Part shown: in pieces, positions 16,678 to 63,886 of the stretch
How positions within the stretch are numbered: position 1 is the stretch's first letter
Layout of the letters: the number at the start of each line of letters is the position of its first letter
Assembly: GCA_023053545.1 (NCBI GenBank)
Contig: JAKZAN010000002.1
Span: forward strand, 10,164,790-10,228,789
From: Lepidurus packardi
Taxonomy: Eukaryota > Arthropoda > Branchiopoda > Notostraca > Triopsidae
DNA length: 64,000 nucleotides
Direction: 5' to 3'
Translations under genes and position numbers: made by a program
The notes under the pieces: model-generated
What the model was told of the DNA's origin: nothing
The model's database searches: none
Seen by the model: the letters and a program-made list of their open reading frames with translations, nothing else

Positions 16678-19049
16678 AAGGATAGATATATGGATGGAAG
16701 AGTATATTGTCTATAAACTACAACGCATCCTGTAAAAGGGGTAAAGAGGGTCATAAAGTGCCTCTTTCCCTAAATAGCTCTATCTGCATCTGATAAAACG
16801 TTACCCCCCCCCCAGCTCGCTTACTAAATTTCGGTGATACCCTAAACGTTTTGAAAATATGTTCGTCAATTTGACCCGTTTGACCCACAATAAAGATAAA
16901 AGAAATGACCCCAAATTTCTCACATGGTTTCTATACACCCCCTGAAGTGCTGGAAAGGGACCAGAAGGGTCTTCCCTCTTTCGTCTCCTTTTCAACTTTT
17001 CGTCGTCAGTCAGTCGCTAATGAGCCAGGCTTTTTTGACAACTCCACCTCAGCCAAAGGTAAAGGTATGATTTCAATGACACCACTTTCACGCTATGACG
17101 TAAAGCACCCAAGGTGTCACTTCCTTTTGTCTGTACTGGATCCTTCAAGCTATGACTGAGAAAAATGTCCCTTGACACCTCCATTTCATTCAAAATCTTG
17201 CAGACTGCTTTAAGTTTTCGGGCCCACCCTCTTCGGACCATCACGCAAAATGCACACCATCACCACTCATGGGAGTCTATGAAGTTTTAGGGTCTGAGAA
17301 GGGCAAGCAACAGAAATGCAGATCCAACAGTTCTTGAAACCTTTTCGAACCATTGTGTGACAAACCGGTTCCCATAGTGCAGTCTATCTTGCAAGTTCGT
17401 CTGTCCATGACAAATGACACATGTAAATAATCTACTCAAAAAATGATTAGCGCTGAGACGTGAAATCAAATACAACTTTTTTTTTCTGTTTTTCCCTATG
17501 CTCTGCCCAAAACCACCGTGGCGAAATTTTAAGCCCACCCCTCGAAAAAACGGTACTCTTTGTTGAGTGAGAATCTTAGGTTTTAGTTAAGCGCGTATCA
17601 GCACGCTCCAAAATCCTGTGCTTTGATCTCACAAATCGGTTACGGCCACAACTTTTTCACCGCACGTGAATCTCTAGGAAGAGATACTGTGAGAGTTGGG
17701 CTATAGTGCGACGTGAAGGACATTGGCAGCCCAGCGACTTCGGACGTCGCCGACGTCCTTCTCTGCCCTCCTTTCTGCACCATGGCAACCCAGACCGGGG
17801 GGAATCGTGACAAGAAGTTACCCTCCCAAAAGCAAATTTCCATATCACAGGGTCTCTTTTGCCTTTATCTCTGTCGAGAATCCTGCCAATGGATGTCGAG
17901 ATCCAGTGTTGGTAACAGCACGGCACGACATTCGATTGGCAGAGTTGGTAAACCGGCAAGCTCCCCAAGCCTTTTCCAGCAGCGAAGTTAGGCGTGGTTT
18001 AAGGTACGGGGAGGTCTGAAAGAGGCGTTTCATGTCACTCAAGTCTGCAAGTCAAGCCAAGCACGGCACTATCGGTGATTGTCATCAGGGCGCAGTGCAC
18101 ACACGTGACGAGAGAACTTGCTTACTCTCGGACTCTTCGTGCAGTACGTTTACGCGTCCTCATCGCCATAGCAAGCAGCGAGGGTGTCCCGAGTGTTTGG
18201 TTTTCCCATTAGGGCCAACCTGGGCCAAGGCTTGGCTAACTTTACTTGCTTGCCAGCTGCAGCGGTGTTCCATTGTGGACTTTACCGACGAACGTACATA
18301 AAACCCATCTTGTTAGCTAAAGCGGGAGTGTGAACGCAAGGAGTACACTAATTCGGAAAAACAGCGACTCCTCCTCTTCCTTTTCCGCCTCCCTTTTTGA
18401 CTGTGTAAGTAGCTTTGTTAAGCTAAACTTGGCTCAGTGTCGTTCTGTTCCAATTTACCAATTCAAAAGAATTCTTTGCGCTTTGGACATCCCTCTTAAA
18501 GTGACAAATGCGTGGACAAACCAAAAACAGCCAACTTCAAAATATTGGCTATTTCCTTCGCTGTATCGGGGAGAAATATATATCAAAGAACACCCCCCAA
18601 AACTTCTTCCGTGTGGATTGACTCGAGCATTTGCCAATTATTATTTCCTCATCGTGCAGCGAGGTAGCAAAAACAAATCAAGACGATCGAAAAGCTCCAC
18701 AAATCGCAACAGGTCTCGAATCCAGAATTGACCTTGCCATGTGTAGTATTTGTTTCCAAGCGTAAAAAGGTGGGAGGCTCGCATGGGTGGTGTATTATGT
18801 GCGGTTTCAAGATAACATCCTTGTTATACTAGCCAAACGAAGTAGATAAAAGTGCTGGACCTTACACGATTGATATGTCGTCTTATACTCCTGCGTAGCC
18901 CCGCTTATCAGTACCAACAACAATTGAGTGCTTCGACGCTTGTGTTTTTAGCAGCGTTCTCAAACACAGAGCGTTTATCCGTGTTTCAGTTCAACTAAAT
19001 TTGGCACTCATTGACTGAACTAGCACAAGTTTGTCTAGAAAAAACAGTA
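16678..19049 (+). other. FoxA upstream region, no gene recognised
   Basis: 2.4 kb between the IFT46 stop and the FoxA ATG. Several overlapping frames of 60-133 codons occur around 17.0-18.7 kb, but none shows a domain, splice structure or strand-consistent codon use. It presumably holds the IFT46 3' end and the FoxA promoter and 5' untranslated region. A run of 10 C lies at about 16805. Confidence 0.5.
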
Positions 19050-20771
19050 ATGCTTTCGGATACCCTTTCGGGTACTATGCTACCCCAGAAACTGTACGCG
19101 GAATCGGGTTCCATCTCCAGTCCCATGAGCATGGTCTCATCTTCGGCGGCGGCAGCAATCATGAACTCCACGAGTAGTGCCATTGCCTCCATGTCCATGC
19201 CAGTGTCTGCAGCAGGCTACTCTAGTATGAACGGTATGAACATGAGTTGCATGAATGTAGGTCTAGGAGGCACAGGCGGGACTTGTTCTTCGTCGAGTCA
19301 AGTCAGTTCTTCAGCGGCTGCAGCAGCCGGAGTCTTCGGAATGACGTCGGGGTTCAGCGCGATGGCGGCGGCTGGCATGAATGCCTCTTGTATGTCACCT
19401 TCTATGAGTGGCATGAGCTCTTACCACAGCATGGGAGGCCCGGCTGGAGCAATGAATTCCATCGGAATGGGACAATGCATGGGCTCCTCTTTAGGATCCG
19501 TAGGTTCCATGACTAGCGCTTTGGCTCCCGTTTCCATGAACCGGACATCAGCCGGGACGGATTTGTCTTCCGATCCCAACAGCTTACGGGTCCGCAATGA
19601 CAAGGCATACCGTCGCAGTTACACACACGCCAAACCCCCCTACTCGTATATCTCACTGATTACCATGGCTATTCAGAACGCGCCCAGCAAGATGCTGACG
19701 TTGAGCGAAATCTATCAGTTCATCATGGATCTCTTCCCCTTTTACCGTCAGAATCAGCAACGCTGGCAGAACTCAATTCGCCATTCTTTATCCTTCAATG
19801 ATTGCTTCATCAAAGTGCCCCGTACTCCCGACAAGCCCGGTAAAGGCTCGTTCTGGTCTTTGCACCCTGACTCCGGGAATATGTTCGAGAACGGCTGTTA
19901 CTTGCGCCGTCAGAAGCGCTTCAAGTGCGATAAAAGAGAGGCTGTCCGTCAAGTTCACAAGCACATCAACGATGGCACACCTGGCGGTGATTTGCATCGC
20001 AAAATGTCCGAATCTCAATCGCACAGTGATGATGGAAGCAGTAATCTGGGATCAGAAGACGTCGTTTCAAAACTTCACCATCATTCCGTGCGCTCCGTCA
20101 ACCCGCAACACAATTCCGCTAACTTGCATGCTAGTAGCCATAAGAACTCCGCCCTACACGACAAACTAGCAAATTCCGGCAGTAATAACAACGGCTCGGT
20201 TCTGCCAAGCATGCTAACCAGCGACGATCCCCTGGAAAATATGAGTCCCGAAGCCGTGGCCGCGTCAATTCCCACGTCCGTGGTTCAGCACGAGCAATTG
20301 GTCTGTCACGACGACCGTTTCATCGAAAAGTTTAAGTACGAGAAATACGAAAAGTATGAAAAATACGAAAAATACGAGAAATATGACAAATGCGACCAAG
20401 CCATGGATTTGGGCAACTTGTCACAACGTTATGATCCCATGGCAATCCAAGCAAACCATCAATTGTTCGGGGGCCATTTGGGCCTGCATACTGGTTTCAA
20501 AGACGCGCCTTATTTGACGCCCCATCCATTCTCAATCCAAAGACTCTTACCGGGCGCTTCAGATGCCAAAAACGACATCAAAATGTTTGATATGTCTCCA
20601 TACGGAGGCTATGCCACCACACTTGGCCAGGCTGGCGTGGGGGGGATGGGGCAACCGAGTCTGCATGATAACAGCAGCTATTATCAAAACTTCTATCACC
20701 AAGGGATGCATCACGGTCATTCTAATCCCCATGTCCATCATAATCCATCTGCTTCCACCACCTCTTTATGA
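19050..20771 (+). CDS. fkh: FoxA / fork head transcription factor
   Basis: A single coding exon of 573 residues if translation starts at ATG 19050 ([20 protein letters not shown]); the frame is open upstream but only with non-ATG codons, and QKLYAE is the usual FoxA N-terminus. The fork-head DNA-binding domain spans about residues 193-292 ([17 protein letters not shown]; recognition helix [13 protein letters not shown]; wing [12 protein letters not shown]). The conserved C-terminal FoxA motifs are present: [10 protein letters not shown] at about 492, [13 protein letters not shown] after it, and the terminal STTSL. FoxA is a pioneer factor for gut and other endodermal or foregut fates. The N-terminal region is Met/Ser/Ala/Gly-rich. 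Odd feature: five K-Y-E repeats between the fork head and the C-terminal motifs (20334-20392). Confidence 0.96.
20334..20392 (+). repeat. In-frame K-Y-E triplet repeat in FoxA
   Basis: Five tandem nine-base units encoding K-Y-E, with synonymous variation (AAA/AAG, TAC/TAT, GAA/GAG), bounded by KF and KYDKC. The synonymous differences show that the repeat is not brand new. Confidence 0.85.
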
Positions 20772-52021: not shown

Positions 52022-54504
52022 AGCTACAATTTTAAATTTCTTTGCTGCCTACAAAACCGGCAACCTCTTTCTACGGTTCAGGCCAGACACGACGACGGTC
52101 ACGTCCTTCAGTTCGCACTGTCTATTCCAGTCACGTACACAAAGCAAAGTCAGCCCCAGGCGGCTGGCTAATGCGAATTGGAACCCGGTTAAATCGTGTA
52201 TAGCGATACACTCCCCAAACGACTTTGCATATAGTATTATAAGCGGGTAGTCATACAAATCGTCCACAAGCCAATTGAAACGAATAGCAAATGTTTATTT
52301 TTGTTTATAACGAACATTTCTTTGCCTTAGTTCAAATAAATTCAATCAGAACCCGAGGTGCATTTGATAAAAATCGCCAATATATTCTAACAAAATTAAT
52401 GGACCATTAAGCTATTTGTACCTCCGCGTCGAGTCATGACGCTACTGTTCCCCTCCAAAGTGCAACGAAAAATTGCTTCTCAGAAAATCCCTGAACCAAA
52501 TCTAACCTACCGTAAGCTACCCTAACTTAGGACTAGAAAACCATGAAGTTGCACTTGAACGGGGAACAGCAGCGCCATGAACTACCATATATATACTTAT
52601 CAACAGATTTTGCAACATTCTGATGCCGTGCACTTTATACGTACCAAAGCTAACGAAATTGCACCCGCATTCAAAGTAACTGAGAGCAAGAATGTCAACT
52701 TCGGAACATCTGAGGGTTGACCAAAGCTGCAAAGCACTATGAGAATACAAAAGTAGTTCTTTACTCTCCTACAGTCGTCCAGGATAATCATGAATAATTT
52801 GTGCACTTTTGTCAGTATAGCACGTTCACTAGCAGATCTTCTGCACAAGCGAATTTTGTCGAATCATTAGCCAACTTTTCCTGAAAGCTGAACCAGCACG
52901 ACATTAAAAACAGTTAATGTACGAAAAATGTAAATTAAGTGAGAATTATACAAGTACCAACTACTTCAGTTATTCATTCGTCAGTCCGTACATTACTTTT
53001 CCATGTTTCCATGTACAAGAAATGTACGGTGTATTTGAGAGTACCGACAGTTGTATGTACACAGGAATGAATCAAAAGCCCCAAAACGAAATTAAACAAA
53101 AGTAAATAATATAAAAATGGTACATCTTTCCTAAATAGACACTTTTTGTTCTACCTCATCTCTTGAAGCCAATCCCCAAATAAATAAATTTTAAAAAAAT
53201 CGCACTCTTTTTTCTTTTCACGCTTCTTAATTCCTCGTCTTCTTGGTATTTTTTGTCATTTTTTTTACTAGGTGGGATTCGGGATTTCAGTTTTAACGGA
53301 GACTACATAGTCATTTCGTTTTTTCCAAGACCAATCTCTAGCAAGTGCTGTGAATTGGTGAAAAAAAAAAGTGCATGGTCTCTTTTTTTCTACGGTAATC
53401 TTTCATCTATCCATCACATTCTTTTTTAAAGAGGACCAAGTCCAGCGCAATAAACAGAAAGAGGATTACAGCACAAATAAAGCACTAAGGCAAGGGGGTT
53501 GTTAGAATGAATAAACCAACCAAAAACTTTCTTGGCGAGTGTGAAATGGATGGATTTAACCAAAAAAAACAAAAAAAAAACTGGGCTTTCACAGCATATT
53601 TTGTTTCGTGCCAAATCAAGACGTCCGTCTAAAGGGGCCACAAATTCTATAACAGAATTATGTCAATCCGGACTCTCTCCTTTCCGGTTGGGAGAGAAAC
53701 ATGGGTAGAACAAAAATAGAGAAGGGCTATCTACAGCAACACCACTGCGTTCAGTACAGGTAATAATAATAATGATAATAAATGGATAATAGGCAGCCAT
53801 GTAGAGTGGGTAATCAGCGAACTTCGAAATCCTGGCAACCCTTCTCTTTTTTTTCGAAGCATTTTTTTCTTTTTTTTTCGCAATATTCCTGTCTCTAGGA
53901 ATACACATCTTCAAGAAAATTACAATCTAAATTGCAACCTGTCTAGGCTATACTTCACAAGGACAATTTGGCTTCTCAACAAACAAAAAACACATTTGCC
54001 TTGCTGTTCCTTTTGTTCTGTCTTGTATAGTCTTCCCCTAACGGCTCTCGTGACATGCAAACCACACAATTGCCTAAACGTTCGTTTTTGGGCTAATTTT
54101 GTTTTGTTTTTCTATTTCACAAATCTTCTTTCCCCTTTCGCGCCATTTTCTCTTCCTTCGAGGTTGCGCAAAATCTTAGGAAAAAGCATATTGTCTTCTT
54201 TACCTACCCATATAAACCACTTTCTGTCCTTTGAATCATCTTGCACACGAGGAAATATAACCAGCACCCAAAAGGATTTCATTCAGCTCCAGCGGTACAG
54301 TTAGTTCAACTTTTGTTCCCTCTTAAATTCTTTCACTCTGCCAGGGAAGAGGTCGTCATAAGATACTACACAAACACTCCTCATCTTGCATCTTAATTTC
54401 GTTTTCACTCGTAAGTCCACTCCAGATTTCCAAAAACAACCAAAAAATTTCTTTAAAAAAAAACGATAATTTCTTTTACGAACTCGAAACCTTTTCTTTC
54501 TGTT
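52022..54504. other. Intergenic and PAR-1 3' untranslated region
   Basis: About 2.5 kb between the MACROD start and the last open frame of PAR-1. The right part (roughly 53.2-54.5 kb) is rich in T and A runs and probably forms the PAR-1 3' untranslated region on the minus strand. Minus-strand frames at 52049-52267 and 52517-52848 have no recognisable content. Confidence 0.5.
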
Positions 54505-54753
54505 TTAGTCCCGTACAGGAATGGCTGGTAGCTTCCTGCCGGTACTTTTCCTCATGACACTAACGGGAAGCGTCGTTTGCTGTTTCGTGGATTGTTGTTG
54601 ATGTTGCAGGCGGTGTCGAGTCGCTAAACGATTTAATGCGGCTTCCCACTCGATATGCGACGGCGACGTCTCGTCTTCCAGTGAAGAATCATCGTCGTCG
54701 TCACACTCAGCAAAGTCAAAGTCGACCTCCCCGGTGCCATGGATCACGGGTAG
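54505..54753 (-). CDS. Candidate readthrough extension of PAR-1 (82 codons)
   Basis: Directly after the PAR-1 stop (TGA at 54754-54756 on the minus strand) the same frame continues as CTA CCC GTG ATC CAT and stays open for 82 codons to a TAA at 54505. The predicted tail is protein-like: an acidic block (DFDFAECDDDDDSSLEDE), a helix (HIEWEAALNRLATRHRLQ), a Gln/Thr-rich stretch and a basic end (RKSTGRKLPAIPVRD). UGA followed by CUA is the best-known context for translational readthrough in animals. Without readthrough or alternative splicing this segment is 3' untranslated. Expression is not shown by sequence alone. Confidence 0.55.
   Translation of the reverse strand, partial: LPVIHGTGEVDFDFAECDDDDDSSLEDETSPSHIEWEAALNRLATRHRLQHQQQSTKQQTTLPVSVMRKSTGRKLPAIPVRD

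Positions 54754-63886
<9,133 letters not shown>

Follow-up and report, generated by a model that had tools for sequence, protein, structure and literature searches.

The first stop codon of par-1 and the frame behind it

Does translation of the polarity kinase PAR-1 end at the first stop codon of its gene in the branchiopod crustacean Lepidurus packardi, or do some ribosomes continue into the open frame that lies behind it? An earlier note on the 64-kb window analysed here (the whole stretch of DNA, 64,000 nucleotides) had proposed the second, and we examined the proposal at the following features of the locus.

Contig C2 (assembly of 108.6 Mb in 344 contigs), minus strand: par-1 gene region
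60936-61301 and 60257-60613, minus strand: putative par-1 kinase-domain exons, upstream of KA1 on the same strand, from the kinase family search
54973..55935, minus strand: last par-1 intron, read from the sequence, donor AAG/GTAGCC, acceptor TGCTCTAG/G
54757..54972, minus strand: final coding exon of par-1 as far as the TGA, with 72 codons that encode KA1 and its ELKL end, from Pfam and phmmer
54754..54756, minus strand: first stop, a TGA with CTA C behind it, the proposed readthrough stop, from the sequence and the literature on stop contexts

Firstly, we asked what the first stop terminates. The gene has the marks of the PAR-1/MARK family, putative kinase-domain exons on the same strand and a C-terminal KA1 domain that ends in ELKL. 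In this reading the last intron makes a phase 0 frame join into KA1. Pfam finds KA1 in the last exon with E = 1.9e-20, and the 72 codons before the TGA align by phmmer to PDB chains of MARK1 (3ose, 6c9d) and MARK3 (1v5s, 1ul7), with E values from 2e-38 (3ose) to 8.5e-36. The chain ends at the matched ELKL in three of these four sequences (3ose, 1ul7, 6c9d) and runs a few residues further in 1v5s, the chains being constructs and not native protein ends. ELKL is the usual C-terminal end of the MARK/PAR-1 family, and native MARK1 and MARK3 stop there. The claim that KA1 ends in ELKL and is directly followed by TGA CTA C, at 54756-54754 of the minus strand, was confirmed. Since the MARK chains finish at the same residue, where the family usually ends, the first stop of par-1 looks old. 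We also considered a recent nonsense mutation in a once-longer PAR-1; it is unlikely, given this shared final residue of the MARK1 and MARK3 chains.

Two observations concern other genes. Among the kinase matches listed, 127 of 135 lie on contigs C73 or higher, most of them with in-frame TAA or TAG and few with TGA; at locus L010, on contig C169, the whole kinase domain can be read if TAA and TAG are taken as Gln (table 6). Contigs C73 and up look like a ciliate in the assembly. On the plus strand of the window, positions 18999-20768 hold a single open frame of 590 codons with Forkhead_N and Forkhead domains, which we take to be a FOXA-like gene.

Length and layout of the open frame

Secondly, we analysed the open frame itself, hereafter the tail, which is delimited as follows.

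54508..54753, minus strand: tail in frame 0, 82 codons, candidate extension, from reading-frame, composition and codon analysis
54505..54507, minus strand: second stop, TAA, at which GC content shifts most clearly (offset 249, counted from the TGA)

The existence of an 82-codon open frame behind the par-1 TGA was borne out, its end being the TAA at 54507-54505. Past the TGA, frame 0 alone remains open over this length; frame +1 closes after 2 codons and frame +2 after 11. The translated tail reads LPVIHGTGEVDFDFAECDDDDDSSLEDETSPSHIEWEAALNRLATRHRLQHQQQSTKQQTTLPVSVMRKSTGRKLPAIPVRD. From its start it comprises an acidic block, a possible helix, a Gln-rich stretch and a basic end bearing RKLPAIP, and its net charge is -12 over residues 1-32 and +6 over residues 33-82. 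The structured composition attributed to the tail by the earlier note stands for the acidic block, the Gln-rich stretch and the basic RKLPAIP end, while the helix comes from a low-confidence model only: at residues 36-57 it is suggestive, in a single-sequence AlphaFold model with a mean pLDDT of 47.2. RKLPAIP fits the pattern [RKY]xxPxxP, which is short and easily matched by chance, and would presumably correspond to a class I SH3 ligand. Pfam matches to the tail all fall below the cut-off (BNIP2, E 0.013; Sec16_N, E 0.026). A search of the animal's own genome for homologues of the tail returned the par-1 locus alone, and none were found in collections of viral contigs and genome contigs, both of which are without animals.

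How unusual is a frame of this length? We surveyed both strands of 104 kb, made up of the 64-kb window and four 10-kb stretches. Counted from any TGA, the distance to the next stop in frame has a median of 13 codons and a mean of 19.2, the mean agreeing with the stop every 15-20 codons that had been expected beforehand; long chance frames do occur nevertheless, as 60 of 3296 TGAs (1.8%, real coding frames and par-1 included) have at least 82 open codons behind them. The same holds for 3 of the 35 TGACTA sites, again with par-1 included. Of 200000 Markov sequences with downstream-UTR composition, 583 (0.3%) have no stop over 82 codons, and dinucleotide shuffles of the tail are open throughout in 845 of 20000 (4.2%). 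The length of the tail is by itself moderately unusual and gives a modest signal. An antisense open frame of 194 codons, low in GC and probably non-coding, lies opposite the par-1 3' UTR on the plus strand (window 53720-54304), and is a warning that long chance frames exist here.

We then compared the ends of other genes. At nine other putative gene ends, which could be exons read into introns, the second ORFs measure 14, 3, 3, 5, 5, 30, 7, 11 and 8 codons; a further row, L004, was excluded as having been read on the wrong strand. Pfam or the kinase family search backs eight of the nine rows, and the ninth, L005, is a below-cut-off KA1 match; three rows are not independent, because they are kinases with similar C-termini. 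With a probable RanBPM added (25 codons), all ten other putative gene ends in the genome have second ORFs of 3-30 codons. This gene (L048, C1:13629600-13632600), whose first stop is TAA, was assigned by a CTLH match and by sequence that we take to resemble RanBPM.

Coding signs within a single genome

Thirdly, we looked for signs of coding in base composition and codon usage. GC content is 0.54 in the tail versus 0.37 in the 246 nt that follow. A change-point scan over 1500 nt from the par-1 TGA places the best single GC change at offset 249, the start of the second stop, with a log-likelihood gain of 11.0; offsets 222-278 lie within 2 lnL. Windows of 246 nt with a GC content as high as that of the tail make up 1.8% of all such windows in the 64 kb. 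The drop in GC at the second stop, and not at the first, is a stronger sign than the length of the tail.

Codon usage was scored with a table built from genes of this genome that have Pfam support, a weak model with about 2,400 training codons for the scores of the six frames and the shuffles and about 2,600 for the comparisons with other open frames and known coding chunks. Frame 0 of the tail has the top codon score among the six frames, and 14 of the 845 open shuffles match its score. Measured against local base composition, the tail scores -2.8 bits and KA1 +5.1. The codon score of the tail is equalled or exceeded by 30 of 203 other frames that are open for 82 codons or more, a set that certainly contains some exons; when 50 long open frames with a GC content of at least 0.48 are ranked, the tail comes 7th. 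Codon scores below that of the tail are found in 11 of 28 known coding chunks. Codon usage in the tail is best in frame 0 but only mildly coding-like, and beside real sequence its score does not stand out. The GC step, the opening of frame 0 only and the codon score are all coding signs, individually modest.

These results bear on the simplest alternative, an untranslated frame, open by chance where the 3' UTR begins with GC-rich sequence, next to a coincidental TGA CTA. Such an opening is in keeping with the 1.8% of TGAs and the 4.2% of tail shuffles that have frames this long, with the 30 of 203 long frames that equal or beat the codon score, and with the several overlapping frames that are open at the tail. 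It fits poorly with a GC boundary that coincides with the second stop, with the 0.3% of UTR-like sequence that stays open, with the top score of frame 0 among six and with the extension reported for the fly ortholog, which has a positive PhyloCSF score. On balance we regard a chance frame as unlikely, roughly a one-in-six prospect.

Splicing and other forms of recoding

A coding tail might also be reached by alternative splicing, either by excision of the TGA in a cryptic intron or by use of an acceptor located within the tail. Its coding-like composition would agree with this, but the tail stays exactly in the KA1 frame, which argues against splicing. We scored splice sites with rough matrices. 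No donor in the exon scores above 2, hence no donor-acceptor pair is over threshold, and all 14 acceptors in the stop and tail score -1.0 or less; weak candidates are the donor CCT/GTGCGT at 54919 (0.2) and the acceptor TGATTCTTCACTGGAAG/A at 54674 (-1.0). The splice test is a weak one: the matrices are rough, and the true donor and acceptor of the last intron themselves score low, at 0.7 and 1.1. We consider a spliced route to the tail improbable.

Other forms of recoding or reinitiation appear more improbable still, namely selenocysteine insertion, a frameshift or a downstream cistron. The stop is indeed a UGA. A selenoprotein would carry a SECIS element in its 3' UTR, and an Rfam scan of 52500-54990, with matches accepted up to E = 5, gave no SECIS and only two weak matches, both unrelated. 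The early closure of frames +1 and +2, after 2 and 11 codons, argues against a frameshift, and a downstream cistron is disfavoured by the position of the single in-frame ATG of the tail, at residue 67 of 82.

Stop context and RNA signals

We next turned to the stop codon and its surroundings, AAACTC TGA CTA CCC. In human cells and in fungi, UGA CUA has been described as a context of high readthrough, strongest when the next base is G, and three UGA CUA contexts gave 0.61-2.29% readthrough in HeLa cells (PMC4359377, PMC4207609). The view of UGA-CUA as an established readthrough motif holds to that extent; the seventh base at par-1 is C rather than the stronger G. We would expect readthrough at this stop at a low per-cent level.

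A Drosophila study of 2026 places emphasis on stem-loops close to the stop (PMC13170385). At the par-1 stop, predicted RNA structure showed no clear gain over shuffles in three stretches (z of -0.97, -1.56 and -1.25); the final 100 nt of the tail reach z of -2.00. A pattern scan of the par-1 locus did not find the CAGCAGCA 8-mer, which is present in 23% of Anopheles readthrough candidates (Jungreis et al. 2016, PMC5100048). Neither RNA structure nor this 8-mer is needed for readthrough.

One further element lies within the tail.

54632..54637, minus strand: ATTAAA motif, possible poly(A) signal, from pattern only

Polyadenylation directed by this motif would truncate the transcript inside the tail; beyond the tail, the first AATAAA to be found is at 52299.

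Readthrough as the preferred reading

Taken with the fly report, the evidence from this one genome is best explained by a leaky TGA in par-1, with readthrough into the tail, and we give this reading a probability of about 0.7. The readthrough proposed in the earlier note gains strength from the presence of fly par-1 in Dunn et al. 2013, which the note did not cite; the coding signs from this one genome are modest one by one. At 54756-54754, a near-cognate tRNA would decode UGA-CUA, as in ordinary readthrough; a small share of ribosomes would insert an amino acid at the UGA and read on in frame through 82 codons until they meet the TAA at 54507-54505. The gene would then yield mainly a kinase ending in ELKL, together with a minor form that bears an 83-residue C-terminal extension directly behind KA1. 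The tail is probably translated in Lepidurus packardi.

KA1 has an auto-inhibitory role in both C. elegans PAR-1 and human MARK1 (PMC6451319). The acidic first part of the tail (-12) could compete for the basic surface of KA1 and so alter autoinhibition or cortical binding; it may change the contacts of KA1 with the kinase domain or the membrane. The basic end of the tail might supply a docking or localisation motif.

If confirmed, readthrough of par-1 would be common to flies and a crustacean, an individual readthrough switch would be dated to deep Pancrustacean ancestry, and there would be a testable route, independent of splicing, to changing a polarity kinase at its autoinhibitory domain. 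Both the abundance of readthrough in Pancrustacea, Daphnia pulex included, and the readthrough of fly par-1 are already published.

Comparison with known readthrough genes

The same six-base stop context as in par-1 is found in human LDHB, MDH1 and AQP4 (PMC4359377, PMC4207609); the seventh base of par-1 is C instead of the favoured G. The LDHB extension, of 18 nt, ends in a peroxisome signal, and the par-1 tail has no such ending.

Closer in phylogeny, readthrough has been reported to be abundant in Pancrustacea, and in Daphnia pulex by a single-genome test, and a TGA with C as the next base to be commoner among ancient readthrough stops; the main text of that report makes no mention of par-1 (Jungreis et al. 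2016, PMC5100048). A TGA followed by C, an open second frame and coding-like composition are common features of Pancrustacean readthrough genes, and par-1 has both the open second ORF and the leaky context of TGA with C next. The Pancrustacean candidates rest on PhyloCSF alignments, whereas the case made here rests on one genome.

The closest parallel is Drosophila par-1, which is listed in Table 2 of C-terminal readthrough extensions in Dunn et al. 2013 (PMC3840789), a study that reports readthrough-consistent footprints for 43 of 283 predicted transcripts and for 307 further ones, and that examined four NLSs in cells. RanBPM is also in the fly readthrough table of that study. Readthrough of RanBPM seems not to be common to the fly and Lepidurus packardi, as the probable RanBPM described above has a short second ORF; fly readthrough therefore does not transfer automatically. 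Fly par-1 is likewise a PAR-1 family member with a C-terminal extension, and has ribosome profiling and a positive PhyloCSF score (654.90) behind it; its extension (2R:15370912-15371608) is 696 nt long with a predicted NLS, whereas the tail here is 246 nt (Dunn et al. 2013, PMC3840789). From the identity of the gene, the fly extension presumably follows the same ELKL stop, and the par-1 stops of fly and crustacean may be the same ancestral readthrough stop. More tentatively, and with the odds somewhat against it, par-1 may have carried a readthrough stop since the ancestor of insects and branchiopods, which would place it among the oldest such switches in animals, gating a tail that modulates KA1 in autoinhibition or membrane binding. 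Since readthrough of fly par-1 is already on record, the Lepidurus packardi gene would most likely add one more instance to a known kind of event.
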